A stretch of 64,000 nt of DNA from Strigops habroptila. Lineage: Eukaryota; Chordata; Aves; Psittaciformes; Psittacidae. A program made the position numbers and the translations under genes. A model generated the notes under the pieces. It was not told where the DNA came from and made no database searches. It saw nothing but the letters and a program-made list of their open reading frames with translations. Location: NCBI RefSeq assembly GCF_004027225.2, contig NC_044298.2, forward strand, positions 372,001 to 436,000, read 5' to 3'. Shown piece by piece: positions 28 to 56,880 of this stretch; the stretch's first letter is position 1, and each line of letters opens with the position of its first letter.

Positions 28-2551
<2,524 letters not shown>

Positions 2552-3712: not shown

Positions 3713-12494
<8,782 letters not shown>

Positions 12495-14695: not shown

Positions 14696-17600
14696 ATGAC
14701 CATCACCCATCCTGTGGTGAGCACAGACCCCGTTCCCAGCAGGAGCTCCCCACGGGCAGCCGGAGCCAAGCCAGGAACTCTCTGTGCTCCGCATCATTTA
14801 CATTCAGCCCCAGAGCTCTGGAGCAGGGACAAACCCTCCCTCCTGGTGGCTGGGCTCCAGCGGGGTCTGGCTGCAAGGAAGCACCTTCCCTTCCCGTTCC
14901 CAAGGCACCGCCGTGGCCTGAGCAGCGGCCCCGGAGCCCCGGGCAGTGATGAAACCCTTCAGGAACGGGGTGAGCGGGGGCCTGCTCCCCTCATGCACCC
15001 TTCCCTGGCTGGGATAAGGTGCTGGAGCACCGGGAATGGGATGTGGAGGGGGTTAAACCCTATCTCAAGCTGCCATGGGCAATGCCTTGGAGCCCCATGA
15101 TGGCAAAAGGTGCTGGGTTTGGGGTTGGAATTTCGGTTGGGTTTTGGTTTTCTGTCTTTGCCACAAATGGAAAGTTTTTCAGCCCACACGTCGGGAGGGG
15201 AAAGCCAGGAACAGGAGGAGGGAAAAGCGGCCAAGAAGACAGGGGTATGGAGGCGATTGTGGGGACCATCATCTCTAAGACCTCGGAGCTTGGGAGCTGC
15301 TGAAGACAGACTGAGACACAGGCACGCACGCAGGTGACATCCATCTCCATGGGAAACCAGGTGGAAAATGGAGCTGGAGTCTATTTTGGGATGGGAACGA
15401 TCTTTTTTGCTCCCCTGAGCTCGGCCCCGCTTTCAGAGGACATGATTTGAGGCTGCAGCTCCAGGGGCAAAGGCCGGAGCTGCATCCATCGTGCGAGGGG
15501 ACGGATGATCCCTGACCCCTTCCCATCTGGGAAGGGGCTTCCTCCTCCTCCACGACCCCCTTGTCCCCTCCACGTGCGGGCGGCTCCTCCCGTCTCACAA
15601 GGTGCCCGCAGCCCGCAGCGAGCCGGGGGGAGCAGTCAGCGGAGCGGTGGCTTTCCAGGGATGCTCAGCTGCAGAATGAGTCAGCAGCAGCCACGGGCAG
15701 AGCTTGGCCACGCTCCAGGCTGGAGCAGGGAGCCCTTGTCCCCACGGCAAAGGGCTCCGGACACCCCAGCCCATGTCCCCATCCATGCACGCACCCATCC
15801 CGCCACGCACGTGGCTGCCTCTGGAGCAGCTCCCCCGCTGCAGCCAGGATCCATCCCCAAGCCCTGGATGTGCGGGGGGTGCTCGGAGGGGTCGGGAAGC
15901 GCCCGGCAGCCTCTTGGCAGCAGCCGCTGGCAAAGCTTAAAAGGCCGGAAGCAGGTGGGGAGAACGGGGGGTACCTCTGGCTGCCAGAACCCCTCAGCCC
16001 CCCCTATTCCAACAGGGAGAAAGGGGCTCCTTGTTGTAGGGCTGGGATGCAGCGGGGAGCGGAGGGGGGGGACCGCAAGGAGGGGTTGGGAGCAGACCCC
16101 ATAGGGACACATGGAGGTTTGCAAAGCTATCCCCACCTCTCCCCCTGCTGTAGAGCTCCGGTGGGGAAACTGAGGCAGGAGTTGGGACAAGAGGAGTGTG
16201 GGGTGGAGGATGTGGGGTCCCACATCGCGGCATTGCTGCTCAGTGGCAGCACCTCCACACGCTCACGCAGCTCCTCGCTCCCAGCACAAAGGCTCCCAGT
16301 TTCCCCAGTCTAAACGCAGAAAGGCAGCCCTAAAGCATCCCGGTCACCCTCCAGGAGCTGGGAAAGGCTCCGGGATGGGGCAGAGGGAGCTTTTCCCACC
16401 CCTCCGGCAGCCGAAAGGAAGAGCAACAGGTTCTGGGTTGGACTCAGCCAGGAGAAGTCCCCGTGATGGGAGACGAGGCGGCTTCAGTCAAAAGCGGTCC
16501 CCGGAGGCGATGCTCAAGGGCAGCCCCTTCATCCCGGGGACAAACTGGGATGTACGGGAAGGAAAAGGGAACGCAGCAAACTGCCCCGACCCGGGGCACC
16601 CCACGGAGGGGTCGGGGGGTCACACTGGGGCTGCTCAGAGGAGAAAAGCCATGGAAATCCCACAACATGTTCCTGTGTTCCTCCCCTCTGCACTGGGACA
16701 CGGGCAGTGCTGGGGGACGGGGCCAGGAGGGCCGGTGGTGCCCTGCAGCCCTCCCAGCTCCTGGGCTCTGCCCCCGGGATGGGGCAGCTTTGCCCCATGG
16801 AAAACCTCCCTATGGAGCATCCGGGCAGGACTGGGGGAAGCCGGAGCCCCGGGGCTCTGTGCAAGGCCCTGCCCAGCTCCGTGCCTCAGTTTCCCTTTCC
16901 ACTCTCCCCTGACTGCAGCCTCCTTGGGACAAGGACCCATGCAGAGGCTCTGCAGGAGAGAAGGGGAAGGCTCCCCGTGATGGGACACCCCAGATCCATG
17001 CTGGACCCCCATTCCCCTCCGGCAGCTCTCCCAAAACAATGGTCCCATGGGAGCAGCTGCTGAAACACCCCCAAAATTCCCATTATTCCCAACGGGACGA
17101 GCCGGGCAGCACAAAAGTCCTTTTCCCATCCAACTTAGCAAGATCCCCCCTTTACTCCCTGCTCTGCCCCAGCACTGCAGCTACAAGCTAGTCCATTCAA
17201 AACCAGAAAGATGCTGTGAGGGGGTCGGTGACAAGGACAAACCTCCCCAAAGCAGGACCATCAGCTTCCAGCATCCTCCTGCCCTGCGATGGAGGATGCC
17301 CCATGCCCGGTGCCTGCATCCCATGGGAAAAACCACGAGGAAAGCTCTCGGCATCCCCACGCTGGAGCATGTCTCCTTTTACTCTCCCCCGGCGCAGAGG
17401 TGAAACGAGATACAGGGATTAGTAGCTCCCTCCTCACCCCTCGGCCGTTCCCCGCCGCGTTCCCCGCATCCCACCTTGCTCCATGCGCGGCGGCAGCTCC
17501 TTGGGGACCCTTCCTGGTGGTGGCAGCGCCGGGGGAGCGTCCCAAGCCCCGAGGCCACGGTGAGGGGCTTTGCTGCGGCTTCTCCGGGGCAGTGCTGGCA

Positions 17601-19345: not shown

Positions 19346-19779
19346 GTGCCGGCTCACAGGATGCCTTCCAGGGCTGTGGCTCTGACTGCCCCTTCCCAGG
19401 GCAGCTCCTGGTCCCTCTTGGCTGATGGCATTAGTGGGGAAAAGTTCTTGGTACATCCAGGTCCTGGAAGGGGTAGGGGAAGAGGGTGAAGACCAAAGTG
19501 GCAGCAGGGCACAACCCTTATTTGACATCAGAGAATCTCTATCCCTGCCTGCAGTCACCTAGGGTCTCCCAGCCCTTCCCATTGCCCCAGGCCCAGCCCC
19601 AGCAGCCAAGGGTATGGGAAGGGGTCCGGTTCCCAGCTGCATCCAGGCTGGAAGAGCCCCAGTGCCCAGATGTGCTTCCTTCTCCCCCTCCTCCTGCTCC
19701 AGCCCTGCTTGAAGTCACGTAACAGCTCTGACACGTGCCCCGTGCCAAGCTGGCTGGCACCGGGGGGGGAACACACGTC

Positions 19780-20335
19780 CCAGTCCCATGGGATCCTGGC
19801 CCTGAGCATCCCCCAGGGACACAGACATCCCCATCCCATGGGATCCTGACCCTGAGCATCCCCCAGAGACACAGACATCCCCATCCCATGGGATCCTGAC
19901 CCTGAGCATCCCCCAGAGACACAGACATCCCCATCCCATGGGATCCTGACCCTGAGCATCCCCCAGAGACACAGACATCCCCATCCCATGGGATCCTGAC
20001 CCTGAGCATCCCCCAGAGACACAGACATCCCCATCCCATGGGATCCTGACCCTGAGCATCCCCCAGAGACACAGACATCCCCATCCCATGGGATCCTGAC
20101 CCTGAGCATCCCCCAGAGACACAGACATCCCCATCCCATGGGATCCTGACCCTGAGCATCCCCAGAGACACAGACATCCCCATCCCATGGGATCCTGACC
20201 CTGAGCATCCCCCAGAGACACAGACATCCCCATCCCATGGGATCCTGACCCTGAGCATCCCCCAGAGACACAGACATCCCCATCCCATGGGATCCTGACC
20301 CCAAGCATCCCCCAGGGACACAGATGTCTCTATTC
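19780..20335. repeat. 50-bp minisatellite, about 11 units
   Basis: Tandem copies of a 50-base unit whose core includes CATGGGATCCTGACCCTGAG and CCCCCAGAGACACAGACATC. Copies are nearly identical. One has lost a single C near 20160. Fifty is not a multiple of three, so a minus-strand frame that stays open across the array cycles through three unit phases and gives a 50-residue period. It is not a gene. Confidence 0.95.
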
Positions 20336-22010
20336 CAAGTGATTGCCAACCCTGAGCACCCCACAGGAGGAAGGGATACATAGACATCCCCACCCCGGGG
20401 TGTCCCTCCAGGCTCCCCCAAGCAAGGAAGTGCTGGGACCCCTCTACATCCCTGGGGATCCTGAGTCCTCCCTGGGCTGCAGGATCTGGGTTGTCCCTAC
20501 GGGAGAAAGGATGGGGCAAAGCCAAAGCAAAGGTGTGAGGAGGAAGAGGAGAGCAAGGCCGGCTCCGGAGCAGACGTGCAGCTGGAAACAAGGAGGAGGA
20601 GGAGTATGCTGAAGGCTCAGGCAGAGCTCTGGGGACCCGGAGATGAATGACCCAACCTCAGCGCTCCCTGTGCTGCTTAATGGCATTTCAATGCTGCTGC
20701 AAGAGGCAAAGCAGAGGCTGGCCAGGGAGCCAGGCAGGAAGTCTGGCCGGAGATGAGCCGGGAAGACGATGCCTTTGGGGACCCCCAAGTAAGGGCATCC
20801 CCCCCCTTAACACTGAGAGGGAGAACCCGCTCCCTGCCATGGGGCTGGGGCCGGGATCGCTGTTACTGCTGCTCCCAGGCGGTGGGGACATGGAGCCCGC
20901 AGCGGTGCGGGGCTGGAAGGAGCGTGGGGACAGCGCTGGGTGGCCTTTGCCAGCAGAGGGGACTGTTGCTTGTGTCTGGAGCTCGCCCGGAGCCGCCCCT
21001 TGGGACAACGAGGAAAGGGACGTTTTCCCTTTCCCTCTTTTCCTGGGCGGGACACGAGGGACCATCCCATGGGAGAACCGCGGTCACTCGGAGAGGGGGA
21101 GGAAGGGGGAAAGCGCCGGCAACAAGTTTCTCCCCAACAGACGTTTTCCTGCTTCTTTTGTTCCCGAATTTCCAGTTCGAAGCCTCCTCCCCTCGCCCCC
21201 GCCCCCCCCCCCGCCCTCCATTGGAACCAAATGAGGAGCCGGCGCTTGCCAAGTCTCAGACGCGGAACCGGCTGCAGTCCCCTTTGGGCTTCCCATGTGG
21301 AATGCGAGGATGCTGCAGCTGGACACAGCTGGATGCAGCACCCCAAGGAGGGGGTGGCCGGGGTGATGCCCTGTGCCACCCCCCCTCTCTGCTGTCCCCC
21401 TTGTGCCAAAGCGGTGTCGCTACGGCTGCAGGGCATTGAGCCCAAAACTGGCCACCGAGAGGCACCGGTGTTCCCGGTGCAGCCAGCACCTTCCCGGGAA
21501 TGTGGGACCATAGACGGGCCCCGTTGGGCTTCCTTAGCCCCACTGTTTGGAGCAGCACGGGAAGGATGCCCTTATCGCCAACTGACCTTTGGACATCTCC
21601 CAAGCTCCATGCCGAGCCCCACAGCAGCTCCTCCAGCCCCACAGCAGCCCCACAGCAGTTCTGCAGCTCCACAGCAGCCCCTCCAGCCCCACAGCAGCTC
21701 TCCAGCCCCACAGCAGCCCCTCAAGCCCCACAGCAACCCTTCCAGCCCCACAGCACAGCGCTCAAGCTTTGGAAGGGGGGCAGATTTTCCCAGCCAAGCC
21801 ATGCCAGGGGGGGATCCAACCCCTCCAACCACCTTCCTAAAGTGCCAAGAAACACCTTGCTCTTCCCCAAGGCTAGAACATCACATCTGGAGCACAGCTG
21901 GGGGGAGGCTCAAGTGGCTGGAGCCCGTGTGGGCTGGAGCCGGGCAGGAGCGGAAGGGTTAAACCTGGCGGCTCGCCCGGGGCTCAGGGGCCTCCCACTT
22001 GCCCAGCGTG
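20336..22010. other. NES upstream region with short CAG/CCC repeats
   Basis: GC-rich DNA leading to nestin. From about 21605 to 21765 there are imperfect 18-24 base repeats built on AGCCCCACAGCAGCCCCTCC. Nothing else is recognisable. The NES promoter should be in the last few hundred bases, just before a TATGAATA-like sequence at 22014. Confidence 0.45.
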
Positions 22011-22110
22011 GAGTATGAATAGCTGCGCTCCCCTCTGCTCCAGGCACTCTTCCCTCCCTGCCTTCCCCCTCTTCCAGAGCCGCGGCATCCTCCGGCATCC
22101 CCCGGCGCCG

Positions 22111-25100
22111 ATGCTGAGCACGGAAAGCTTCAGCGGGGCGAGAGCCCTGGGCGAGGAGTCGCTGCAGATGTGGGAGCTCAACAAGCGGCTGGAAGCTTAC
22201 CTGGCGCGGGTGAAGGTGCTGGAGGAGGAGAACGAGGCGCTGAGAGCCGAGATCCAGAGCGCCAGGAGCGGCCCGGCCGGGGACCAGCGGCGGGTCAAGT
22301 ACGAGGAGGAGCTGCGGGCGCTGCGGGATGCGCTGCGGGACGCCTACAGCGGGAAGTGCGCGGCCGAGCTGGCCCGGGACAGCCTCTACGAGGAGGTGCA
22401 GCAGGTGAGAAGTCGGTGCCAGAAGGAGCAGGCGGCCCGAGAAGCGGCCAAGCAGCAGCTCTCGGTGAGCAGGAAGGAGCTGGAGGAGGAGAGGAGGGCG
22501 CAGATCTGGCTCAAGGAGAGCGCTGTGCGGCTGCAGAAGGAGGTGGAAGCTCTGCTGGAGGTACACGAGGAGGAGAAAGCGGGGCTGGAGCAGGACATCG
22601 CCGGCTTCTCGCAGAGCCTGGAGAGCTTCCGCTGCGCGCCGGTGGCTTTCCAGCCCCTGGAGGTGGAGGATTACTCCAAGAGGCTCTCGGAGATCTGGAA
22701 AGGGGCTGTGGAGACCTACAAGACGGAGGTGTCGCAGCTGGAGGGTTCCCTCTGCCAGGCCAAGGAAAGCCTCTGGAAGGCTGTGGAGGACAACCAGCAG
22801 AGCCAGCTCCAGCTCCAGCGCCTGGAGAAGGACCTGGCCGGGCTCAAAGCGCGGAAGGAGATGCTGGAGGAGTCCTTGTCCCGGCAGTGGCAGGAGCAGC
22901 GCGGGGAGGCAGAGAAGTTCCAGGTGGGTGGAGGTGGTGGGGTGGCACTGGGTGCCATGGGGAGGGGAGAGCGGGGTGCTGGGGGTGCCGGAGGGGTGCT
23001 CAGGGATGGGAGGAGGCAAGACAGAGGGAGCAAACCCCAGGGCAGGGCGGATGGTGAAGCCCTGGATGAGATGGAGGAAGAGGAAGCTGGGGAGGGCGGG
23101 AGCAGGAGCAGAGCAGCTCGGGACATCCCTGTCCCCACCACAGCAGGGACCTGGGGCCACCTCGGCGCCGGGGAGCAGCACCCGGACGCTGGGTTCATTC
23201 CCATCAACCTGCCTGGAGCTGCTGCTCCTCATCCTAGAGGAGCGCCCGGCGCTGGGTGCAGGCAGGGCACAGGCAGCGGGTACAGGCAGCGGGGGGGTCA
23301 TGGGCAGGATAAACTCCGACCGACTTTGCTGCAGCTGCAGCCTAACAGCTGCAAAAGTCATTCAGCAGAGGGGGAATGGGGCTGGAATGCCGGGACAGCG
23401 CCCGGGGAAGGAGCCCTCTTTGTTCCAGGTCCAGGGATCAGCCACGGGCACCACAGAGCAAGAGAAGCAAAAGATGTTTCTTTCCCACGCTGGCATCCCG
23501 CTGTCCTGAATCCCGCCGGCATTCCCGCTCTCGCAGCCCCCTGCCCATCACTTTGTGGCATCCTTCCTCTCCTCACCCCCCCCTCCACATCCTCAGCCCC
23601 CCTAAAACCAAGTGCCCAGGACCCCTTTTCCCTATGGAAAGGAGGGTGGATGGAAGCAGGAGCCACCCGCATGGTCCCATGTCCAGCAGGACCAGGCAGG
23701 GCTGGGGCAGGACTGAGGTGTCCCTGATCCCATCCCGCAGCTGGCGCTGGAGGCCCTGGAGCAGGAGAAGCAGACGCTGCGGGTGCAGATCGCCCAGGTC
23801 CTGGAGGACAGGCAGCAGCTCATGCACCTCAAGATGTCCCTTAGCCTGGAAGTGGCGACCTACAGGTGAGGTCCCCGACGGGGGTGAGGACGGGGACCAC
23901 CTCGGGCACACACAGAAGGTGCTTGGGGGGGGTCTCGGGGACAAAGGGGGGGCTTGCAAAGGGGTGTCCCTCTTCCAGCCCTTCCAGATGGCCCCAGACA
24001 AAGGCGGCTGCGGGGGACTGGGGGGACAATTTGCATGAGAATAGGGGCTGTCCCCAGCGCAGGCCCCGGCAGAGCATGATGTCACCGGAGCGGACACTAA
24101 TCCTGGGAACAGGGGGATGGGACGGGAGACAGGAGAGGGGGGGGGGGCGGGATAGAGGAGCAGAACCCCCCGCAGCCCTCCCGTGCCTCAGTTTCCCTGC
24201 GAGGGGTGCTGGGGTGCACCAGGAGCCGCTGCAGGCACCCACCTCCCCACCCTGCAGCACCCACCAAGGGGCACCCACCGCGTTCCTCTCCCTGCAGGAC
24301 GCTGCTGGAAGCAGAGAGCACCCGCTTGCAAATGCCAACGGGGGAATACAGGCTGGCCAACGGCTTGAGAGGTAAGGGTCACCCCGGCTCCATCCCGGCT
24401 CCATTCCGGGACTGCCCCGGGACCATCCCGGCTCCATCCTGGCTCCATCCCCGGCTCCATCCCGGCTCCATCCCTGGCACCAGGGAGGGAGATTTTGGGA
24501 TGAGGCTCAATATAGACACAGTTTTCCTGTCTGGTTGCTCAGCTGTGATAGGAAGGTGTGAACAGCGTCCAGAGAGCTCCTGGCATGATAAGAGCTTATC
24601 ATCCCTGCATGATGCCACCCCCTCCAGCCCCCCCGCTGGAGCACTGGCATCCGCCGCACTCCAGGCAGGAATTTCCCACTTCCCATCAAGGGGCTGTTTA
24701 AAAATAGGCACAGGGGCAGCGAGAGGCACCTCAAGAGGTGATGGGGGGGGGGCCGGAGGAGCCCCACAAGTGGCTCCTCACCCTCTGCCCCCCGCTTTTT
24801 GCAGATCTCAAGCTGGAGGGGAGCAGCAGCACCAAGCTGGGCCCTGAGGCCAGGAGGATGCTGCCCCGGGAGCACCGTGCCAGCCCCTCGCCCTTCGCCA
24901 GGGCAGAGGGGAGGGGGCAGCCAGGGAAAGCCCCCAGTGATGCTCTGATCCCCCAAACCCCGAGCGCTGGCACCAGGGAGCTCCAGCGCGTCGGTGCTGC
25001 CCATGGCGCGGCACCACGGGATGCTCCCAGCTTCCCTGCAGCAAGCCCCTCGCAGCCCATCCAGCTCTCCCCAGAGCCCCCCAGCCCCATGCTGGGAAGC

Positions 25101-28100
25101 CCAGGGGAGGGTCCTGCCTGGCCGGGGGGAGATGGGGATGAGAGGAGCCGAGGGAAGGAGCATCCACCACCCGAAGCCATGGAGAAGACCCGCAGCCTGC
25201 GGTACCCAGCCCAGCTGGTCAGCGAGGCGCTGGAGGATGCTCTCAAGGAGGTGAAGGATGATGCTCAAGCCAAAGAAGAGCCCATGCTCAGCGCCACCTG
25301 GGCCCCCCGGGATGCCCCCAGCCCCATTCCCCACACAGAGGCTGTGGCAGAAGGAGGAGAAGGGCAAGACCTCTCTGAGGGTGATGGGGATGGTGAAGCC
25401 CCTGAAGCAGAGGAGGAGGTTGAGGAGTTGGTGGTCCAGGGGCTGGGTGTCGAGAGCAGCACCCAGCGGGACGGAGCCACGTCCCCTCCTTGTGGCTTTG
25501 CTGCTTCCCTTAGTGCCACTGTGAGCCAGGAAGAGATGGGAGAGTGGGAAGAGGAGATGCCCACTGTGCGGAGCCCAAGGGAACCAGAAGTGGTGTCCCA
25601 GGAAGAGGACATGGGCGGCCCCGGCCAGACAGGGACCAGCCAGGAAGAGCCAGAGCAAGGGGAGGAGGAGGTCCCAAGCATGGAGGCATCACACCCCGAG
25701 GAGGAGGAGGAGGAGGAAGAGGAGGAGGAAGAGGAAGAGGAGGAGGAGAGGGCATCCCACATCCCCTGCGGGGAGGACGGTGATTTCCAGGGTGAAGGAA
25801 TGGATGAACACCAAGAGGAGTCCCCACCAAGGGAAGCTGAAGCTGCTCGTGCTGCCCTCGAGGAAAGCCACCCGGCCCTGGAAGAGGACCTTGTTGATGG
25901 AGAGCAGGAAGAGCCTGACCACCAGGAAATGCCTGTGTGCGAGACAGGGCTGGAGGAAAGGGGGCAGGAGATGTGCCCAGAGCAGGAGCCCTCAAGCATC
26001 CGTGGGGCCACCCCAGCAGAAGAGGCTCCACTGGGGCCTGAGGAAGATGCGGTGGAAGGGGAGGGCCAAGGCAGAGCAGAAGGTGAGGGAGAAGAGGGAG
26101 AGGCCAGCGGGGGGGTGCTGGGAGGAGACCCCTGGGCAGGACCTGGACCCCTGGGCCAGGAGAGCAGAGCCCAGGAGGAGCTGCAGGGAAAGGACTTCAT
26201 GGAAGAGGAGCGGGAGCAGGAGCAGGAGCAGGGAGAGGAGCCCTGGGGCAGGGACGATGATGGCAGCAGCCAAGAGCCCCCTGCAGAGGGCTGGGAGGTG
26301 GCAGCAGAGGACACAGAGGAGGCTCTGGGGACAGATGACACTCCACTAGGCGCAGGAGGGCTGGAGAGCGAGGGCAGAGATGGCACATGGCTGGAGGGAA
26401 CCCAAGGAGAGGGTGAAGAAGATGATGAAGAGGCTGAGCCAGCCCCAGAGCTGGCAAGGGATGAGCAGGACGGCTCCATGGGGCAACCTGTCCCCACAGG
26501 TCCCCCTGGGCAAGGGGACAGCCAGGAGCTGGCCGAGGCTCTGGAGGAGCCATGGGAAGGGCGGGATGAGGATGTGGATGATGCTCCCGGCTCCAGCCCT
26601 GCAGAGCTTCAGCAGGCACGAGGCATGGAGAGGGATGGGCCATTGGAGGAGGAGGATGGGCCATTGGAGGAGGAGGACGAGGATGGGGGCTCGGGGGAGC
26701 TGGAGGAGGCAGCAGGGACAGGCAGGAAGGTGGAGCTGGAGGACACGCTGCCCGACAGCACCCCCTTGCACCTCTATGGGGGGGAGATGTTGGCTGTGGC
26801 CCCATCCAGCCAAACCCCTCTCGAGGCTGAGGACACCATAGAGGCAGCATCTGAAGGAGCTCCAGAGGATGAAGGGTGGCTGGAAGGGAGCGATAAGCCA
26901 CCAGCTCCCACCATGGTCCAGAGCCATGAGGAGGAGGCAGGGACAGAGGGAGCTCCTGCAGCAGAGGGTGCTGAGGAGGAGGAAGGTTACTTCATGGTCT
27001 CTGCTCCCAACCAAGAGGTGTCCAGCTCGGAGGAAGCCGAGATCTCCGAGGACTTTGAAGAGATTAAAGCTGAAGCAACCGAGGGCAGCAGAGACGATGT
27101 GGAAGCTCCTGGAGGAGCATCTCCAGCGCCAGACGACAAAGGGCACTTTGAGGCATTAGTTGGTGCAGCAGATGAAGCCGTGAGGATGCCCACAGAGATG
27201 CCAAAGGATGAGGATGAGGAGGTCGACGGGGGTTCTTCCGAGCCGGAGGAAGGCCCCATTGTGCCTGGAGGAGACGGTGGGGCCATGGGGCCGGTGGCAG
27301 GAGGTGCTGCTGAACCAGCCCAGGCTGCTGAACCAGCCGAGGAGCTCGATGGCGCGGTGGAGCCGGACAGTGATGCTGGAAGAGCCGAAACACCCCCAGG
27401 CTGCAGCCTGGGGCTGGAGGAAGATGAGGATGAGCCCAGCGTAGCTGAGCCCATCCCTCCGGCAGTGCTCCAGCCCCAGGAGAGGCCAGTTCCTCTGCCC
27501 CACCAAGCAGAGCAGCATCCATCAGATGAGCAACCACCACCCATGGAGCAGGAAGCACGGGACGGTGACAGCCCTCTCCCAGCCGAGGACAAGGAGCCCC
27601 CCGAGGCCGACCCACCTCATGCAGGCTCCGGGCCGGAGCAGGGGGGGTCCCCAGAGGTGGCTGAAGAGCAATCGGATGCTGCAGAGGTGCCACTGGACAT
27701 CCCGGAGGACCCGGATCTGCTGGAGATCGTCGAGCAAGCGTTGGAGTTCAACCAGGAGGTGGTGATGGGCGCCAGGGCAGCCGAGGGCAAGGAGCAGGGT
27801 CCCGGCGGCACCCAGGATGCTGGAGAAGACTCTTCACCCACCTCGTCCAGCGAGGAGGAGCCCACGGTGCAGGAGGCACCGGCGGACGCGGCACCGCAGG
27901 CTCCGGTGCGGGCAGAGAACGGGCTGCACCGCGCCGCCAGCCTGGAGGACCTGGCCGAGTTCAGCGAGGAGGTGCCCAACGGCATCACCGGCACCGCACC
28001 GGCATTCCCTATGGAGAACACAGACCCTGCCGCGGCCGTGCCGGCTCCCGGAGATGCCACCGGCACCAAGGTGGCCGATGCCAGCCCATGTGGTAAACAC

Positions 28101-28151
28101 GGTGACACCGTCCGAGCCGAGCAGGAGCCCTGCTCCATGGGGAACGAGTGA
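22111..28151 (+). CDS. NES: Nestin (avian nestin/transitin), class VI intermediate filament
   Basis: Intermediate-filament protein of neural and muscle progenitors that co-assembles with vimentin-type partners. Coding exons: 22111-22923, 23741-23865, 24298-24371 and 24805-28151, about 1452 residues (human 1621 from memory). The rod starts with the helix-initiation motif (QMWELNKRLEAYLARVKVLE), runs as an alpha-helical coiled coil and ends in exons 2-3 with LKMSLSLEVATYRTLLEAE. The last exon encodes a long Glu/Gly/Pro-rich tail with an oligo-Glu block near 25700 and the conserved DTLPDSTPL motif. I chose the ATG at 22111 because the human protein starts just before GEES-QMWELN. An in-frame ATG at 22015 would add 32 residues but sits in a TATA-like sequence. 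AATAAA is at 28509-28514. A large open frame antisense to the tail is a codon-bias shadow. Confidence 0.93.
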
Positions 28152-33084: not shown

Positions 33085-33430
33085 CTGATTGGCCACCTTG
33101 TTCTAGCCAATGAAAGAGGCGTCTCGCCGAGGAGGCGGCCCCCGGCTGTCTTTCACAGCCAATCGGAAGCCACAAAAGCGTTCCTCCTCCTCCCGGAACA
33201 GCGGCTAACCAATGAAAGCCGCGATCGGGGCTGACCGCTGAGGGAGGCGTGGCAGACGAGGGGCGCAGGAGGCGGCTCGCAGCCAATGAGCGTGGCGGGT
33301 GGGGCGCAGGAAGCGGCTCGCAGCCAATGAGCGCGGCGGGTGGGGCGCGGGAGGCGGTCCGCAGCCAATGGGGAGCGCGGGGGGCGTGTCCCCGGCTTCC
33401 AGAGAGTTCGGAGACGGGAGCGGAGCGGCG
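33085..33430 (+). promoter_or_regulatory. DNAJ gene promoter: seven CCAAT boxes, HSE-like site, untranslated exon 1
   Basis: CCAAT boxes lie at 33107, 33159, 33209, 33283, 33324 and 33364, plus a reversed one (ATTGG) at 33088. The last three sit in 40-41 base tandem repeats of a GCAGCCAATG block with GGCGGGTGGGGCGC. CCAAT is the NF-Y core. At 33396-33410 CTTCCAGAGAGTTCG matches the inverted heat-shock-element pattern TTC-GAA-TTC with one mismatch (GAG). An untranslated exon ends at 33430 (donor GTGAGT) and splices to 33611. No TATA box is seen. Binding of NF-Y or HSF is inferred. Confidence 0.75.
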
Positions 33431-33629
33431 GTGAGTGATGGCGGCCCCGGCGCGGCCCGAGCCCCGCTCCCGGCTCCCCCCGCTCGGCGGGGCCCGGTGG
33501 CGGGCGGAGGGGATGGGGGGGTTAAAGCCGTGGTGACCGCCGGGGCGGTGCGGGCGCGCCGCGGGGATGGGTCGCTCCTGACATGTCGCGACTTCGCGGT
33601 TGTATCGCAGCGCGTCGGCAGCGAGGACG

Positions 33630-36274
33630 ATGGTGAAGGAAACGGGTTACTACGACCTGCTGGGCGTGCGGCCGGGCGCCACGCTGGACGAGATCAAGCG
33701 GGCGTACCGGCGGCTGGCGCTGCGCTACCACCCCGACAAGAACCCCAGCGAGGGCGAGCGGGTGCGTGCAGCCCCCCCCGGCGCCCCCTGCCCGGCCCCG
33801 CTGCGCCCCCCCCGGCTCACCCCCTGTATCCCCCCAGTTCAAGCAGATCTCCCAAGCCTACGAGGTGCTGTCGGACACCCACAAACGGGCGCTGTACGAC
33901 CGCGGCGGGGAGCGAGCCATGAAGGAAGGAGGCTTGGGGAGCCGGGGGGGCAGCGCTGGGTTCGGCTCGCCCATGGACATCTTCGACTTCTTCTTCGGAG
34001 GGGGAGTGCGGATGCGCGGCCGGGCTGACAGGAGAGGTACCGGCATAAAGGGGATCCCCTCTCATCCTCCAGCACCCCGCGACCTGCCCAGCGCTGCTTT
34101 TGGGGGGCAGCAGCAACGCCCCCCGCGGCACCCGGCCCGACGCTTCCTCCTCAGCCCGTCATTACTTTCTCCATCAGCCCCTGTTCAAAGGGCCCTGCCC
34201 TGGCCCGGCTTTCCCCCGGTGTCCCCGGGGCTGGGGCTGAGTCAGCCCAGCGCTGCCCTGGGCTCCTTTGGGGGGAGGCTGGAGCGAGAGTCAGGGCGTG
34301 CGGAGCCGCTGGGGTGACTCTTGGCGTGCCTCTGGCCTGGGTCATGGCACAGGGTGACTCGCCGCAGCGTTCCCTGCTGGGATGGCGCGATTTAATAGCA
34401 GGGCAATTAGGAGCCCGGGGGGAAGCGTCTGCTCCAGCTGGAGGGAGGCGATGAGGAGCTGCAGGGAAAGAGACCACCAGAAACATGGGGAGATCCCTTT
34501 GGAGCCAGCGCCTGGCTTCATCCCGAAGGATGGAGGGAAGCTGCTCGGCCACTGCTCCCTATGGAGAGCGGGGTGATGGGGAGGCTGACCCGGGCTCTCC
34601 CCTCTGTTCCCGCAGGGAAGACCGTGGTGCACCAGCTCTCCGTGTCCCTGGAGGACCTCTACAACGGCACCACTCGGAAGCTGTCCCTGCAGAAGAACAT
34701 CATCTGCAGGAAGTGTGGAGGTGAGCCCCGGGGTGCCGGGGGGGGTCCCCAGCACCGCAGCCCCCTCCTCACCCCTCCTCTCCCCTCCCCGCAGGCTGTG
34801 GGGTGCGGGAGGGCGCCCAGAGGAGGTGTCCCAAGTGCCACGGCTCGGGCATGGAGGTGCGGATCCATCAGCTGGGGCCCAGTATGATCCAGCAGATCCA
34901 GACGGTGTGTTCCCAGTGCCAGGGCCAGGGCGAGTGGATCCGGCCTCGGGATTGCTGCCTCACCTGCAACGGCCGCAAGGTCGTCAGGGAGAAGAAGATC
35001 CTCAATGTCCACCTGGATAAAGGTGGGATGGGGCCGTGTGGGGCGCGGGGGCGCCCCTAAATGTGCTGCGCCCCCCCCCCTGAGCTCCGCTTCTCCCCCC
35101 CACAGGCATGAAGGACGGGCAGAAGATCACGTTCCATGAGGAAGGGGACCAGGTCCCGGGGCTGGAGCCCGGGGACATCATCATAGTCCTGGATCAGAAG
35201 GAGCATCCCGTGTTCCGGCGCAGCGGCGACGACCTCATTGTGCGCAGGGAGATCAGCCTGGCCGACGCGCTGTGCGGCTGCCGCCAGGTCATCCGCACCC
35301 TGGATAACAGGAGCCTGCTCCTGGCCTCCCCGCCAGGTGGGAGCGGGAGCGGGATGCGTGGGGCAGCCCTGCAGTGGGGCTGGGATTGGGGGCGGGATGC
35401 ACTGGGACAGCCCTGCAGTGGGGCTGGGATTGGGGGCGGGATGCACTGGGACAGCCCTGCAATGGGGCTGGGATTGGATGCACTGGGCCAGCCCTGCAAT
35501 GGGGCTGGGATTGGATGCACTGGGACAGCCCTGCAATGGGGCTGGGATTGGGTGCACTGGGACAGCCCTGCAATGGGGCTGGGATTGGGACCAGGATGCA
35601 CTGGGACACCCTTGCGAGGGGGCTGGGCTTGGGGCTGGGATTGGCATCGGGATGCACTGGGACAGCCCTGCAGTGGGGCTGGGATTGGGATCAGGATGCA
35701 CTAGGATGGCCCTGCAATGGGGCTGGGATTGGGACCAGGATGCACCAGGATGGACCGGGATGCACTGGGACAGCCCTGCAGTGGGGCTGGAGTTGGGACC
35801 GGGATGCACTGGGACAGCCCTGCGAGGGGGCTGCGCGCTGACACTTGTCCCCCCACCAGGGGACGTTATCCGGCCCGGAGACCTCAAGTGTGTCCCCAAC
35901 GAGGGGATGCCCGTCTACAGGAGCCCGTTCCAGAAGGGGAAGCTCATCCTGCAGTTCCAGGTGAGGAGCGGGCGCCGGGGCCACATCCTGCACCCCTGCG
36001 GGGTCTCCGCCTGCTCACGCCGTGCTTCCCCGCGTGTTCCCAGGTGAAGTTCCCGGAGCCAGGCTGGCTGCCCCCCGAGCGCCTGCGCCAGCTCCAGGCC
36101 TTCTTCCCGCCGCAGGACGAGGTGATGGCCACGGAGGACACGGAGGAGGTGGAGCTCAGCGACTACACGGCCCATGGGGGGCCGGGGGGGCGAAGGCCCT
36201 TCCCTGGGGACCCCCCCCACGATGATGACTTTGAGGACGGGACGCGCCAGCACGTCCAGTGCCAAACCTCATAG
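33630..36274 (+). CDS. Type I DNAJ/Hsp40 co-chaperone, DNAJA1/DNAJA4-like extra paralogue
   Basis: Predicted cytosolic Hsp70 co-chaperone. Coding exons: 33630-33761, 33838-34036, 34616-34720, 34795-35022, 35106-35336, 35860-35960 and 36044-36274. All phases agree, giving 408 residues (DNAJA1 and DNAJA4 about 397). In order: J domain ([16 protein letters not shown] in YHPDKN), Gly/Phe region ([14 protein letters not shown]), the zinc centre with four motifs ([32 protein letters not shown]), substrate-binding beta domains ([24 protein letters not shown]), an acidic stretch (DDDFED) and a C-terminal CQTS prenylation box. Every hallmark is intact, so this looks like a working gene. It belongs to the DNAJA1/A4 clade and not A2 or A3. 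Its place between NES and CRABP2 has no human counterpart I know of. ATTAAA is at 36840-36845. Confidence 0.93.
35345..35830 (+). repeat. Minisatellite inside the DNAJ gene's sixth coding intron
   Basis: About 12 copies of a unit of 37-50 bases with the core GGGACAGCCCTGCAATGGGG, then CTGGGATTGG and GATGCACT. It fills the intron between the exons ending at 35336 and starting at 35860. Unit length varies because the GGGACCAGGATGCACT part is present or absent. Confidence 0.9.
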
Positions 36275-39029
36275 CCAGGGCTGGGGGGGGGGGGGGCTGT
36301 GGGGCAGAGCTTGGGGGGGGGGCTATGGGGCAGGGAGGGGGCTCTCGGAGCCGTCACCTTCAGGGATGTACATAGGTCACCTTTGGACAGCACTTCACCT
36401 CCCTTTGCCCCCCCACTTTGGGGACCCCCCCCCCAGGCCCTCCTGCTAAAGGGGATGGGCCCCTTCAGTGGGTGCTGCCCTGCACTGAGGGGAAGGGGGG
36501 GCCCTCACCCCCTGCCTCAGTTTCCCCATTGATGCTGGGGCAAAGCCTCCCGACGAGCCCCATAGGGGGAGGACTTGAACTGCCCCCCCCGGCCCCGGCC
36601 GGCCCCACAGCGCCGTGGGGCCCCCACAAGGCCTTTGCTTTGCCCATTTCTGTCCTTGCTGGAGCCTGGCTCAGGCCTGGGAGCGAGGGGGGGGTTTCTC
36701 TGGTCTCTTTGCACACACAAAAGGGGGTTTTTTGGGGGGGGTCCCGTCCCTTTAATTTATTTTTTAGAGGAATTTTAAGCATTTTTTCTCTGTTGTCATT
36801 GTCGGGGGGGGGCTGGAGGGGGGGCACTTTGTACTTGGCATTAAAAGCAAATCCCGACTCCAGCGGCTGCGTGGTGCCGGATCCCTGCGGATTCCCCATG
36901 GATTCCCTGTGGGGTGGCTCCGGGCTCCTGCTCCGTGGCCGGGGTGTGCCTCAGTTTCCCTGCTGTGACCCAGCGGGGCCAGAGCTGCCCCCCAACCCCT
37001 CCTGTCCCCCCCCCTTTCACCCCATTGTGACCATCCCTGCGGAGGCACCCCCCCCCCCCCCAGACAACTTCATGCCCCCCATTGCTTTGCTGTGGGGCAG
37101 AACCAGGTGCGGGCAAAACCCCCCCAAACTGGGGGGGGAAGCTGCACCCCTTTAATGCACGAAGATGGGGGTGAACCCCTTGGGGGGGGCTGCAGCTGGA
37201 CACACACACATACACCCCCCCGCTCCTGCTGGAGCTCAGGGAAGCGTTTGGCTCCAGATGTGGATGGAGGAGGAGAGCAGGAACAATGGTGGCCACCGGC
37301 CAGCTTTGGGGGGGCCCCACAGCCCCCGGGGTGAATCCGCACCCTGTGGGAGGGGGGTGATGGGTGGTGGCCGTGTTCCCCCCCCCCCCCCCCCGCCCTG
37401 GGTGTCCCCTCCCAGAGGTGACAGCGCGTTATGGGGCGCGTCACCCGCGTCCTGGGCTGCCCTGGGGGCACCCCACGGCAATGGGGTCACCCCACGGCAA
37501 TGGGGTCACCACCAATGGGAGCCCCCCCCGCCCCCCAAACCGGTCTCTGCCCTTTGTCACCGGTGCCCTGTGGCACCCGCAGCACCAGGGACCCCCCTTC
37601 CCAAACCTGGCACCTCCCAGAGCCCATCACCGGGACCTCCATCCCCATGGATCATCCTGGGGGGGGGGATTGCTCCTCCAGCCCGGCTTAACCCCCCCAC
37701 CCCCCCAACCAGGACCCCCCATTCCAGCCTGGAAAAGGAGGATGTTCCCCCCAAACCTGCCCAGCAAGTCCTGGGGGTCATTCCTAGCCCCATCCTCAGC
37801 CCCATCCATGGCTCCATCCCCGGCCTCATCCACCCCCCAGCACGCTCCCCCCTGGCGGGGGCTCTGGGGGCACCTCTCTGTGGCCCCCCCATTGTCCCCT
37901 GCGCAGACCCCGCGCATCCCCCCACGGCTCCAGCGATGGGGGGGGGATGTTCCATGACCCCCCCCCCCAGCACATACACTGCGGGGCCCCCCCGGGGGTC
38001 GCTCATTCATTCGCTCCCTCCCGCCCATTCATTCCTCTGCTCATTCATCCCCTCGCTCCGGCCCCGCTTTGTCTCGGCACATGAAAGCCGAGGGGCCCCC
38101 TCCCCATCCCGGGGGGCAACCGGGGGCCCCCCGCAGGTCACCGGGGCCGCTCGGGGCCGGCTGAGAGGCGCCGGGAGCACCGAAACCACCCAGGAGGAGC
38201 CATGGAGCGCGGGGGGGGGGGCCCATTCCAGAGCATTCCCGAGCACCCTCTTGGCGCTGGGGTCACTGTGACCCCCCCCTTCCCAGCTGGAATTCGGTTC
38301 CGGTGGGATGGGGGCACATCCATCACCCCCCCCCCCGGACCTCCCCATCACTTGGGGGGCAGCAGGATGGGACCCCCAATGTGGCTGGATAGTGGGGGGG
38401 TTGTGCAGGCCCCATAGACCCCCCGTGACAAGCAGAGACACGAATCGGAGCCGTCCCTTGGGCAGCCAAGGGGAAAGCGGATATTCCAAAGGGGGGTAGA
38501 AGCGGGAATTGCGCGGGGGGGGTGGGGGGGGGCTGGTTTTCCATTACCCGGGTGGGTGGTTGTGGGGTCTTGGGGTGGGAGGAAGCGGCAGGTTTGGTGA
38601 TGGAGCCAGGTCCATTGACCCCCCCCCCCGCCATGGTCCCGCATCCCGGTTGGATGCTGGGAAAACCGGGACATGGTCTGGGAATGGCGATGCCAAGTGT
38701 CCACCTGGAGATACCGGAGCCTTCATCCCCCCCTCCTCCTCCTCCCCAGGGAAGGTGTAATTACACCCTTCCTGCTGCTGCTGAGGAGGGGGGGAAAGCA
38801 GCGGCCCCCCCCCATTGCTGCCCCACAGCTGCCCTATGGCTGCCTCATGGCTGCCCTATAGCTGCCCCACCTCTGCCCCATTGCTGCCCCCTGCTTCCCA
38901 CGCTGGGATGTGCCAACGCGGCCACTGCCTTTGCCTGGGGGCCCTTGCGCAAGGATCGGGCGTGTGGCAGCAGGAGCAGGACATGGGGATGTCGGGACAT
39001 CGGGACGTCGGGACATGGGGCAAAGGACA
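36275..39029. other. DNAJ gene 3' UTR and intergenic DNA before CRABP2
   Basis: The 3' UTR of the DNAJ gene extends to ATTAAA at 36840-36845. It carries an A/T-rich patch (36755-36790) that stands out in this GC-rich window. From about 36860 to 39029 there are many C/G runs and no exon I recognise. Open frames of up to 368 codons here have proline/glycine-rich GC-driven composition and no domain. Confidence 0.55.
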
Positions 39030-39408: not shown

Positions 39409-42107
39409 TCACTCCCGGACGTAGACCCTGGTGCAGACGACGTCGTCGGCCGTCATGGTCTGCAATGAGGAGCAGGTCATGGATGGGACCCCCCCACACG
39501 CACGCACATATATAAAGGGAGTTTCCCAGCATGCCCCGGGGCAGGGATGCTCACCAGGATGAGCTCCCCGTCGTTGGTCATCTCCCTGGACCAGCCCGTC
39601 TTGGGCCCCTCGCCCCGGAGCAGCCGCTGCTCACAAACCATCTTGTTCTCACTCGCCCACTTGGCCAAGCTCTGCACAGGGGACAAGGGGACAATGGGGG
39701 GGGGGACACCCCGAGACACCCCCAGAGCCCCCCCACAGGGTGCACTATCTGTCAGTGTGCTGGGACATGCATGGGGATGGGGATGGGGATGTGGATGGGG
39801 ATGTGAATGGGGACACGGATGGGGATGGGGACACGGATGGGGGCACGGATGGGGATGTGGATGGGGATGGGGACATGGATGGGGACACTGATGGGGATGT
39901 GAATGGGGACATGGATGGGGACGTGGGTGGGGACACAGATGGGGACACGGATGGGGATGGGGACATGGATGGGGATGTGAATGGGGACGTGGATGGGGAC
40001 GTGGATGGGGACGTGGATGGGGACGTGGATGGGGACATTTGCTCCTGCTCCCAACAGTGTCTGGGATCACATGTACCCGGGGCAGGGGGCACAGGGAAGG
40101 CGGAGGGACCGTCCCCCTCCGACAAGAGGGAGCATGTGGCTGCATGTGTGCAAACACGCGTGTGCACGCATGACCACGGGCGCACTTGCACCAGTGTGCA
40201 CGCACACGTGTGTAACTGCTCTCACACGCCTCCATGTGCCCTTGTGCAAAACATGTGTGGACACGACGCGTGTCCATCTACGCACACGCGAGAGCGCGCA
40301 CACGCACACGAGTGCTCCTGCCCTCCCGCCACACGCGTGTGGGTGCGTGGAGACACGCGTGTGGGTGCGGGGGGACGCGGGGGGGGCCGCACCTTGCAGG
40401 GCCGCCCGTCCACCGTCTGCTCCTCGAACTCCTGCCCGATGCAGAAGCTGATCTCCGTGGTCCGCACCGTGGTCGAGGTCTTGATGTAGAAGCTCTCCCC
40501 GTCCTGCCGGATCTCCACCGCGGGCTTGGAGGCTGCCGCCACCGCGATCTTCCTCAGCATCACGTTAACCCCTGGGGACAAGGGGCGGGACATGGGGCTC
40601 CCCACTGATGGGGGGCCCGGGGGTGGCTCTGGGGCGCGGGGGGCGCACACACACACACGCGCGCATCGCCAGGGGGACCCCGGCCCCGCGGAGGCACATC
40701 TGGCTCAGCCACATCTGGCTCTCGTTACCTGGCTCCGGATGCGCCCCGGGGAAGGGATGAGGGTGATGGGGTGGGGGGGGGTGTGAAGGGGCTCCCCCAG
40801 GCCGGGGTGACGGCGGGGACACGGCCCTCGGTGACCCGCGGGTCCCCCCCCCCAAAGCGCAGCTGCGGCTTTGTCCGCGCTGCCGCGGGCGCCTCATCCA
40901 TCACCGGCCGAGCCCCGCGCTGTCACCGCGGCCGCGCTTTGGGGACGTTGTTCCCTTGGCACCCTCCGCCTTGTGCCCCGGTCCCCCCCTCAGAGAAGGG
41001 CCCTGCGGGGAGGGGGTCCCCCCGCATGGGAATGAGGGGACACGGATGGTCCCAACCCCGCAGCGGGGACACGGGGGGATGCGGGTGCTCGGCGCGGGGG
41101 GGGGGGCACACGAAAACGTCCCTGGGAGGCTCCCCATGGCCGGGACCTTGGGGATGCTGCTGCTGACCAGGGCGGTGCAGGGGGGACCCCCAGGTCTGAC
41201 CCACACTTGGGGGTCCCTGAGGCCCCCCCCCCCATGATGCTCAAGAGGAGAAAACAGCCGCCAAAGGGAGCAAAGTCCCTTTATTGCGGGGGGAAGGGGG
41301 CACGATGCAGGCAGATGTGGGGGTCCGGAGCTGACACACCCTCCCCCCCCCCCCAGCGCCTCCACCATGGGGGCCCTGAGGCCGGGGGGGCCCCGGAGCC
41401 TCCCAGGTCCGCGGTGGGGAGGGAGGAGCAGCCGGTCGCAGATCGCTTTCCCTGCTGCGGTTCCCCCGGTGGGGGGTGGGGGGGAGGGAGGGGGCCGCGG
41501 GGGGGGGGCGGGGAATGAAACCCAAGAAAGTGATAATTATCCTGAAATATTCGCTCCGGATCCCCTAACCTGGAAAAAATCCCGCTCCGGCGGCCCGGGG
41601 GGGGCCCTGCCCACAGCCCCGGGGCCCCCCGCTTCCCCCCCCGGCCGTGGGGCCCGGCTCTATGCACCTCCCAAAGCCCCCTCACAGTGTGGGGCAGAGG
41701 GGACCCGACATAGGATGGGGGCACCCCGTAGAGTGAGGGCCCCTTGGGTGGGATGTTGGGGATACCGGGGAGGGGGGAGCCCCATTGGGTGCCTTTGGGG
41801 GGGGGGCAGGCGCAGGGTGTTGGGGGGGATGATGGTTGGGGAGCACCACAGCGGCGGGGGGGGCCGCAGGGGCTGTGCTGGACCCCCCCTCCCAACCTCC
41901 CGTGCCTCAGTTTCCCCAACGGGCTTTGTGAAAGGGGGGGCTCCGGACGCCCCCAGGGCTGGAGGAGGGGTTCGGTGGGGGGAGATGTGGGGCAGGACCC
42001 CCCCCGATCCCCCCCACACCTCGGGGCTCGCACTCACCCAACGCCTTCAGCAGCTCCTCGAAGTTCTCCGAGCTCTTCATCTTCCAGTTCCCGGAGAAAT
42101 TGGGCAT
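39409..42107 (-). CDS. CRABP2: Cellular retinoic acid-binding protein 2
   Basis: Small cytosolic carrier of the lipocalin/FABP fold that delivers all-trans retinoic acid to nuclear RAR. There are four coding exons with the family's fixed sizes: 42107-42038 (70 nt), 40571-40393 (179), 39671-39555 (117) and 39459-39409 (51), giving 138 residues as in mammals. Diagnostic stretches are [63 protein letters not shown] and [12 protein letters not shown]. The last holds the Arg and Tyr that contact the ligand carboxylate. A minus-strand AATAAA lies at 39035-39030. A TATA-like AATAAAAC on the minus strand near 42297-42290 could be the core promoter (inferred). Introns carry repeats. The gene is tandem with ISG20L2 on the same strand. 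Confidence 0.97.
39765..40045. repeat. Hexamer-based array GGGGAY-RYGGAT in CRABP2 intron
   Basis: A tract of about 280 bases of GGGGATGTGGAT, GGGGACATGGAT and similar 6/12-base units in the second coding intron of CRABP2. It reads as Asp-Gly-Asp-Val repeats on the plus strand. This is a strand-asymmetric, purine-rich microsatellite or minisatellite. Confidence 0.95.
40135..40375. repeat. Alternating purine/pyrimidine (CA/CG-TG) tract in CRABP2 intron
   Basis: Dense ACACGCGTGTGCACGC-type sequence, mostly alternating purine and pyrimidine with several CGCG cores. This is the kind of sequence that favours Z-DNA. It ends 18 bases before the donor of CRABP2 exon 2. A shorter CACACACACACGCGCGC tract lies at 40650-40668. 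Confidence 0.75.
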
Positions 42108-45090: not shown

Positions 45091-46265
45091 TCACTCCTGC
45101 TTGGGGGTCAGCAGGAGCTGTTGCTCCCATTCCACCTCCACCACCTTGTAGAGCTCCATGGTGGTCCGGGCGTCCTCCACCGAGGAGTGGCCGCTCTTCC
45201 CGACCTGTTGGGGACAGAGCACGGGGGGGGCACAGCCTGAGACACTGCTCTGACACTAACCCCCCCCCCCCAGCGCTGCAGGGGTCCCTCCTCCTGTGGG
45301 CTGGCACCCAGTGAGGGGGAAACTGAGGCACGGGGCAGCCTCGCAGTGGGGGCACAACTTGGAGCGCCCCGAGCTCAGGATGGTGGGAATCATGGAATGG
45401 GTCGGGTTGGAGCAACCTTAAAGCTCATCTAAAGCCACGGGCAGGGACACCTTCCACTAGAGCAGGTTGCTCCAAGCCCCTGTGTCCAACCTGGCCTTGA
45501 ACACTGCCAGGGCTGGGGCCCTTCCCGCCGGGGGGGTGCCCCACCTGGATGTCCTTGTGCAGCAGCTCCTTGGCCAGGCGCTTCAGGGACACGGTGGCGT
45601 TCTCGGGGAAGCCGCCTTTGCGGTTCAGCAGCGGCATCTTGGACGTGTCGCGGGTGAGAGCTTCGGGGTGGAAGTACTTGAGCGCCTTGAAGTCGTTGTG
45701 GACGGCGTGACCCACCACCACCTTCCCCGCGAGGAGGCGCAGGATCTGCGGAAGCGGCTCGGCGTGAACGCAGCCTCCCCCCGTGGGGCTGCCCCACGGC
45801 GGGACCCACAACGAGCCTCCCCCCCCCACCCCACCCCCCACCCAAAAACCCGGCCCGGCTCCGCACCTCTTTCCGCGCCGCGCCGAACGGGACGGCGCCG
45901 GCCATGTGGTGCCGCCGGATGCCGCTCCAGCGGGTGCGGTAATCCACGACGGGCGCGGCGGGCCGGACGTACCGGTCGTACAGCACGTCCCCGCCGTAGC
46001 CCACGATGCTGCAGCGGGCCAGGGCGCTGCGGCGCCCGCCGGGGCCCGTACCCACCATCTCGCAGTCGATCGCCACCGCCGGGCCGCTGGGGGGCGCTGC
46101 GGGGCCGCTCCCGCTCCCGCCGCTGCCTTTGGCGCGGGCGGGCGCCGGCCCCCGCCGCTCCGCGCGCCGCCGCTGCAGGAAGCGCCGGTGCTTCCGGTTG
46201 CCGCGCGGGGCCGCGCGGGGCCGCGCCACGTGCGCCGCGTGCACGTTGAGGATCAGGTCGGACAT
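45091..46265 (-). CDS. ISG20L2: ISG20-like 2, nucleolar 3'-5' exoribonuclease
   Basis: DEDDh-family exonuclease. In mammals it trims the 3' end of 12S pre-rRNA on the way to 5.8S rRNA, in the nucleolus. Exons: 46265-45867, 45745-45545 and 45204-45091, 237 residues. Exo I is seen as [10 protein letters not shown], Exo II as [17 protein letters not shown], and Exo III as [19 protein letters not shown] with the catalytic His and Asp. The N terminus is Arg/Lys-rich ([17 protein letters not shown]), which suits a nucleolar signal. It is clearly shorter than the human protein (353 residues from memory), mainly in the N-terminal extension. A CR1 sits in the second intron. It is head to head with METTL25B, the two ATGs 126 bases apart. 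Confidence 0.95.
45386..45520 (-). mobile_element. CR1 LINE tip in ISG20L2 intron
   Basis: About 135 bases of the CR1 3' end in the same orientation as the gene. It ends at CAGGGCTGGGGC, 25 bases from the exon 2 donor. The next bases (CCTTCCCGC) are shared with the CR1 at 62.8 kb. Confidence 0.9.
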
Positions 46266-46390
46266 CGCGGGGGGGGGAGGGGAGCGGGGGGGGGGAGGAA
46301 CCGGGACCCCCCCGGAGCCGGCACCGGCGGCCGCGGCACGAGGCGGGGTAACCGGCGGAAGTGACGCGATAGCCCGGCGGGAAGGCGCGG
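46266..46390. promoter_or_regulatory. Compact bidirectional promoter ISG20L2 / METTL25B
   Basis: Only 125 bases separate the ISG20L2 ATG (minus) from the probable METTL25B ATG (plus). The interval is a TATA-less, CpG-rich G/C tract, as expected for a divergent housekeeping promoter. Both 5' UTRs must be very short. The CRE-type array begins about 50 bases into METTL25B. Confidence 0.65.
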
Positions 46391-49230
<2,840 letters not shown>

Positions 49231-51359: not shown

Positions 51360-56259
<4,900 letters not shown>

Positions 56260-56880
56260 CTTCGCTGGCGGCTGCTCCCGGTGCAACGGAGGGGAAGGGG
56301 AAAGGGGGAAAGGGGAGAAGGGGAAAGGGAAAGGGGGGGGTTAAAGCCGAACTTTAGGACGCGAACCCCTAAAGCAGGAGGGATCCGCACGGCAAAGCAC
56401 CGCGGGGAGGGGGGGGGGGGGAAGGAGGAGGAGGAGGGGACCCGAAGGTTCCTCCTGCCCCCCGGTGCGGCGGCGCCCGGTAACGAGCCCTATGGGGGGG
56501 GCGCGGCGGCGGGGGGGGGGCAGCCCCGGCCCCGCGGCGTTAGAGGCGGCGCGGAGCGGCGGAGGGTCCGCGCCCCATGCGGTTGTTTGTGTTTGAATTC
56601 AACTGCTCCCTCCCTCCGCCGCCCCCCCCGGCCTCCTCCTCCTCCTCCTCCTCCTCCGCCGCCGCCGCCGCCGCCGCCGCCGCCCGGTGGATGCGCTCGG
56701 TGGCTCCGCAGCGCTGCCTGGCCCCGGCCCACGCGGGAGGGGAAAATGGAGCCCGATACGAGTGGATGGGGAACGGTGGGGGGGTGGTTCCAGCTCGGGA
56801 TGGGGGAGTTGTCGTGGGTGTGTCGCGATAAAAGGGGACGCGGCGCGGCCATGCGGTGTGGGGGTATGGTAGGGGCGGGC
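56260..56880 (-). promoter_or_regulatory. HDGF: HDGF CpG-rich promoter / 5' UTR
   Basis: Very CpG-dense sequence with a purine block (about 56290-56340), G runs, and a (GCC)n/(CCT)n tract at about 56620-56690. No TATA box is seen. It fits a CpG-island housekeeping promoter for HDGF. The exact start site cannot be read. Confidence 0.6.

Follow-up and report, generated by a model that had tools for sequence, protein, structure and literature searches.

A real and intact DNAJA-type gene lies beside CRABP2 in the 64-kb stretch of parrot DNA analysed here (the window; C23:372001-436000, within a contig of 2.9 Mb). This gene is probably a third member of the DNAJA1/DNAJA4 group, preserved on the CRABP2-side block since 2R, the two rounds of genome duplication early in vertebrate history, and its product is predicted to be a farnesylated, heat-inducible J-protein. 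An initial annotation had described a likely whole-genome-duplication paralogue of DNAJA4/DNAJA1 at this place. An old paralogue beside CRABP2 is upheld, and the reading is refined in that DNAJA1 itself joins the same set.

Gene structure and encoded protein

The gene is composed of seven coding exons on the plus strand (33630..36274, stop included), all with GT-AG splice sites. The joined exons form a single frame of 408 amino acids that is free from internal stops. Exon 1 (33630..33761) encodes the J domain with its HPD motif, and exon 2 (33838..34036) the remainder of the J domain and a Gly/Phe-rich region that is longer than in DNAJA1 and DNAJA4. C-terminal domain I and the zinc region both begin in exon 3 (34616..34720), with the bulk of the zinc region in exon 4 (34795..35022) and the C-terminal domains in exon 5 (35106..35336). 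In DNAJA1 of the same genome, the equivalent of exon 5 is divided by an extra intron (115 + 116 = 231 bases). Exon 6 (35860..35960) is followed by exon 7 (36044..36274), which holds the tail, the CQTS box and the stop. A pseudogene reading of the gene was rejected, as no coding lesions were found. Intron 5 is almost wholly a minisatellite with units of 37-44 bases (35338-35833).

The protein matches three Pfam families above their cut-offs: DnaJ at residues 7-65 (E 3.2e-25), DnaJ_CXXCXGXG (E 2.1e-12) and DnaJ_C, the client-binding C-terminal domain, at residues 115-336 (E 2.2e-39). The HPD motif is located at residue 34. Four zinc motifs of the CxxCxGxG type start at residues 141, 157, 184 and 200, the fourth being CxxCxGxK, as it is in DNAJA1. 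The Gly/Phe-rich region covers approximately residues 75-100, judged by eye in the alignment. The final four residues, CQTS, form a CaaX box identical to that of DNAJA1, for which farnesylation is predicted. With its J domain and HPD, Gly/Phe region, zinc region and C-terminal domains, the protein is classed as a type I J-protein (DNAJA). Exons, Pfam matches and motifs agree with the initial annotation, which had reported a complete type I DNAJ gene of seven coding exons, including the HPD motif, the zinc motifs and the CQTS box. The best match among solved structures is a construct of human DNAJA2 (E 4.9e-118), and the J-domain chain of DNAJA1 is also among the matches.

Transcript ends and upstream region

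Position 33611 is the base directly 3′ of a splice acceptor, ahead of the ATG exon. A non-coding first exon is likely to reside upstream of it, with its donor at 33430/33431. The possible 5′ UTR intron (33431..33610, plus strand) runs from GTGAGT to CAG, as read from the sequence alone. At the other end, a polyadenylation signal, ATTAAA, is found at 36840..36845 (plus strand). The range of 33611..36845 originally given for the gene is sound at both marks, starting on the post-acceptor base and ending on the last base of ATTAAA, but omits the likely first exon further upstream.

Seven CCAAT/ATTGG pentamers occur upstream of the gene (33088..33369, either strand), in fewer than 300 bases, where the window mean is 0.26 per 301 bases. 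The only other stretches with seven pentamers in the 64-kb window lie in the intron 5 repeat. Three of the seven fall within a 41-base tandem repeat (33260-33370, 2.7 copies), each unit of which carries one CCAAT box. Next to these is a heat-shock-element-like site, CTTCCAGAGAGTTCG (33396..33410, plus strand), with 8/9 core bases. The expectation for an 8/9 element is 0.03 per 700 bases (200 random sequences). Within the 64 kb, the pattern is also present at four further places, five in all. The same scan of 700-base promoters detected 9/9 sites in both DNAJA1 and DNAJA4, and no such site in the 700 bases scanned for DNAJA2. The element-like site and the CCAAT boxes together suggest that the gene is induced by heat, like DNAJA1 and DNAJA4.

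The CRABP2 locus and the quadruplicated block

The gene sits between a nestin-like gene and CRABP2, as had been proposed, with a filament-domain frame on one side and the CRABP2 match on the other. CRABP2 is the convergent neighbour, approximately 3 kb away (39412..42107, minus strand), and was located by a search with a protein query. The names of the neighbouring genes are provisional assignments from domains and gene order. We take the intermediate-filament domain frame (21877..23724, plus) to be nestin, the link domains at 10414..11790 (minus; V-set exon within 11322-12392) to be BCAN and those at 1551..2539 (plus) to be HAPLN2. Likewise, a weak RNase_T match just below cut-off (45432-46451, minus) is taken as ISG20L2 and a Methyltransf_32 frame (46960-48552, plus) as METTL25B.

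Downstream of the filament domain is an open frame of 1147 amino acids (24708-28148), likely the nestin/transitin tail, which matches nothing in Pfam. The interval between the BCAN-like and nestin-like genes contains two minisatellites, one of 60-base units in 16 copies (13718-14698) and one of 50-base units in 11 copies with 98% matches (19779-20324). A long array of 21/42/116-base units (56886-57872) resides in the window's only AT-richer region, where GC is 0.525 over 56001-58000.

The arrangement beside CRABP2 is mirrored elsewhere in this genome. On contig C9, DNAJA4 (C9:18,511,083-18,516,321) and the CRABP1 exons (C9:18,548,509-18,551,962) are 32 kb apart, which bears out the initial claim of a DNAJA4-CRABP1 adjacency. 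A search for link domains returned at least 32 matches. Pairs of link-domain clusters on opposite strands were found on C9 (8.24-8.27 Mb), C21 (0.425-0.435 Mb), C23 (0.373-0.384 Mb) and C26 (29.04-29.18 Mb), and the matches on C1, C3, C4, C5 and C11 were unpaired, among the matches listed. Three of the four contigs with such paired lectican/link-protein clusters carry a DNAJA gene: DNAJA4 on C9, DNAJA1 on C26 and the window gene on C23. The linkage is loose, as DNAJA1 is 13.5 Mb from the cluster on C26 and DNAJA4 10.2 Mb from that on C9. Because the clusters are 10 and 13.5 Mb off, the CRABP adjacency is the stronger argument. By its CRABP and link-domain families, the window gene lies in the quadruplicated block. 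The earlier argument from HDGF and HDGFL3 received no support. A search for the PWWP domain of the HDGF family gave 15 matches, of which a single, partial one falls on C23 (window 56158-56223, minus) and none on C9, C26 or C21. The PWWP domain is split by introns, and the search is informative neither way.

Paralogues and intron positions

Genome-wide searches covered an assembly of 89 contigs (1.149 Gb). The zinc-domain search returned six matches, namely DNAJA4 (C9), DNAJA1 and DNAJA2 (C26), the window gene and two on C4, which are presumably DNAJA3. The whole-protein search returned 45 exon-level matches. Neither search identified a DNAJA-type gene on C21, and in the whole-protein search no tandem DNAJA copies were seen at any DNAJA locus. 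A recent tandem or segmental copy was rejected, a second close copy being absent from the 45 matches. The 102-Mb contig C26 carries both DNAJA2 (0.35 Mb) and DNAJA1 (42.58 Mb), which fits the fusion of chromosomes 11 and Z described for parrots (PMC8854603) and accords with a parrot origin of the window.

The bird DNAJA1, DNAJA2 and DNAJA4 proteins were assembled from the same genome for comparison. By alignment column and phase, the window gene's six introns correspond to all six introns of DNAJA4 and to six of the seven in DNAJA1, which shares these six positions with both genes. DNAJA2 has one matching intron among the seven compared (of eight). A retrocopy was rejected on the match of all six introns to DNAJA4. 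DNAJA1 belongs to the same set because six of its seven introns are common and it lies on a contig with another lectican/link-protein cluster.

The window protein is 64.0% identical to bird DNAJA4, 62.4% to bird DNAJA1 and 50.0% to DNAJA2. Identity to the human sequences is 63.6% for DNAJA1 and 61.0% for DNAJA4. For reference, bird DNAJA4 and bird DNAJA1 are 73.8% identical, the bird and human DNAJA4 proteins 80.9% and the bird and human DNAJA1 proteins 92.4%. The divergence speaks against recent copying, the product of the gene being less identical to DNAJA4 and DNAJA1 than those are to each other.

Phylogeny and constraint

Trees were built from eight rows, of which human DNAJA1, DNAJA2 and DNAJA4 and fly Droj2 were reference sequences checked in part, and the rest came from this genome. 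The window protein stands alone alongside the DNAJA4 pair and the DNAJA1 pair, and the DNAJA2 pair is separated from this group at 100/100. By this split and by the common introns, the protein groups with DNAJA1 and DNAJA4 and not with DNAJA2. In AU tests, pairing the window protein with bird DNAJA4 gave p values of 0.0107 (eight rows), 0.0243 (without fly) and 0.0466 (without DNAJA2), and pairing it with bird DNAJA1 gave 0.00244, 0.00241 and 0.0019, respectively. On these comparisons a bird-specific origin from DNAJA4 or DNAJA1 is rejected, with one of the six p values at just 0.0466. Nesting within either bird protein had been named beforehand as one outcome that would overturn the proposal, and it was not found. 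Pairing with the whole DNAJA4 pair or the whole DNAJA1 pair was not rejected by the AU tests. In free trees, the window protein joins DNAJA4 or DNAJA1 depending on the run, with strong support absent. The tree is fragile, and a moderate witness only, because the window gene has a long branch and is GC-rich (GC3 0.890).

At sites that split DNAJA4 from DNAJA1, the window protein is DNAJA4-like at 13 and DNAJA1-like at 9. It shares five of the 14 changes specific to bird DNAJA4 (ancestral at four, another letter at five) and three of the 19 specific to human DNAJA4 (ancestral 11, other five). The corresponding figures are two of 10 for bird DNAJA1 (ancestral five, other three) and one of five for human DNAJA1 (ancestral one, other three). 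Among the sequence features, the five common changes out of 14 are what most favours a bird copy of DNAJA4.

Rate tests with the fly outgroup gave 49:22 for the window protein against DNAJA4 (chi-square 10.3) and 52:22 against DNAJA1 (12.2). With DNAJA2 as outgroup, the counts were 42:29 against DNAJA4 (chi-square 2.4, not significant) and 46:24 against DNAJA1 (6.9). The seven reference proteins have 151 invariant columns in common; the window protein keeps 135 of these and differs at 16, including G233E (in the GEGDQ stretch), F280C, R199C and G175S. Differences to DNAJA4 at codon positions 1, 2 and 3 are 0.264, 0.199 and 0.645, a pattern as would be expected under purifying selection through most of the history of the gene.

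Proposed origin and alternative explanations

It is proposed that 2R copied an ancestral DNAJA block. The window gene would represent the copy with CRABP2, BCAN and HAPLN2, DNAJA4 that with CRABP1, ACAN and HAPLN3, and DNAJA1 that with VCAN and HAPLN1. The copy with NCAN and HAPLN4 would have lost its DNAJA member. A 2R quartet minus one copy is the best fit to the data, and the 2R date itself is one that we infer. The window protein is most likely a cytosolic J-protein of type I, with the HPD motif pointing to a partnership with Hsp70. The J domain would trigger ATP hydrolysis by Hsp70, while the zinc region and the C-terminal domains would hold the unfolded client. The CQTS end would be farnesylated, placing part of the pool on membranes. 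The client surface appears to have drifted, and any special client set, like the activity, the lipid and the heat induction, is a prediction. The mammalian CRABP2 locus is not known to carry this DNAJA gene. A wider scenario is offered tentatively, as a possibility: early vertebrates had, besides DNAJA1 and DNAJA4, a third heat-inducible, farnesylated DNAJA of this kind and at one time a fourth. In birds, and perhaps in frogs, the copy on the CRABP2 side would still serve as a specialised stress chaperone that evolves fast, while mammals would have lost it.

The gene could instead derive from DNAJA4 through a later DNA-level copy, specific to sauropsids or birds, that retained the introns, inserted next to CRABP2 and diverged rapidly thereafter. 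All six introns are common with DNAJA4 and none is extra, bird DNAJA4 gives the highest identity, and the five changes shared with bird DNAJA4 would also be accounted for. Four of these five are K>R or I>V, however, which a GC-rich gene would easily gain, and the AU tests stand against a pairing with bird DNAJA4 in all three row sets. The protein is nearly as close to DNAJA1, and landing beside the CRABP1 paralogue by chance would be improbable because CRABP1 is DNAJA4's own neighbour. Such a copy is considered unlikely. That the gene descends from an ancient local duplicate, made before or between the 2R rounds, and is not strictly the CRABP2-side 2R copy, is quite improbable. One gene per block on three of four duplicated blocks is the plain 2R pattern, and a tandem DNAJA copy was seen at none of the loci, although the sister-group tests favour neither DNAJA4 nor DNAJA1 and the branch lengths give no date for the split.

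The faster evolution seen with the fly outgroup and the 16 altered invariant residues would also suit a gene that is being lost, intact in sequence but with scant expression or with chaperone activity absent. Against this, the 408 codons are open and the splice sites sound, the divergence is mostly at third codon positions, and the upstream region is CCAAT-rich with a heat-shock-element-like site. The rate difference to DNAJA4 is also not significant with the DNAJA2 outgroup, and an annotated gene is kept at that place in chicken. Ongoing loss is very improbable, and a 2R copy retained on the CRABP2 side is preferred.

The chicken gene and wider significance

A published table gives the chicken order as HDGFL1/RRNAD1/CRABP2/LOC425431/BCAN/HAPLN2/RHBG/MEF2D (PMC8230197), and another paper places LOC425431 between ISG20L2 and BCAN. 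Both name it as a candidate gene only, in passages that make no mention of its origin. By family name and position rather than by sequence, LOC425431 is very likely the orthologue of the window gene, which would therefore predate the split of the chicken and parrot lines. The initial annotation regarded the gene as an addition to the bird set; it is indeed intact, but not quite new, as it is already in the chicken annotation under a provisional name. In mammals and chicken, nestin has been placed between BCAN and PRCC, in a main text that mentions neither DnaJ nor CRABP (PMC2075511, 2007). A 2014 survey lists two Dnaja4 genes for frog and one each for human, chicken and five fishes, and for chicken a single Dnaja1 (PMC4277396, Table 2). 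The extra frog gene could, but need not, be the counterpart of the window gene. In a chicken heat-stress paper, the full name given for DNAJA1 is "subfamily A member 1-like" (PMC10209269), which could denote the Z-linked gene or LOC425431 and carries no weight here. A search of mostly open-access literature, bioRxiv excluded, found the name LOC425431 in those two papers only and, among the papers listed, nothing on DNAJA-CRABP2 paralogy or synteny or on the 2R status of this gene.

Should the proposed origin hold, birds would have one DNAJA gene more than the four that textbooks give for human, and inventories that take over human gene names would miss or merge it. A single ancestral chaperone gene could also be followed cleanly through a quadruplicated block. 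In the wider scenario, with the gene lost in mammals, bird and mammal sets of Hsp70 co-chaperones would differ by a whole ancient gene, masked by a "-like" name. Read mapping to DNAJA1 and DNAJA4 in studies of heat stress in birds should separate out this gene.

Comparison with known DNAJA genes

Like the window gene, DNAJA2 encodes a type I J-protein, and its product too ends in a CaaX-like motif. It differs in its 50.0% identity, its one common intron of the seven compared and the absence of a heat-shock-element-like site in 700 bases. DNAJA1 is alike in its domains, its CQTS end, six intron positions and a heat-shock element in the promoter (9/9, compared with 8/9 for the window gene), and differs by 62.4% identity and one additional intron. 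DNAJA4 shares the domains, the six introns, the CRABP-linked position and, in this bird, the CQTS end. Compared with bird DNAJA4, the window protein has a longer Gly/Phe region and a rewritten tail at 64.0% identity, and its gene has a GC3 of 0.890 versus 0.467 for DNAJA4, 0.514 for DNAJA1 and 0.367 for DNAJA2.
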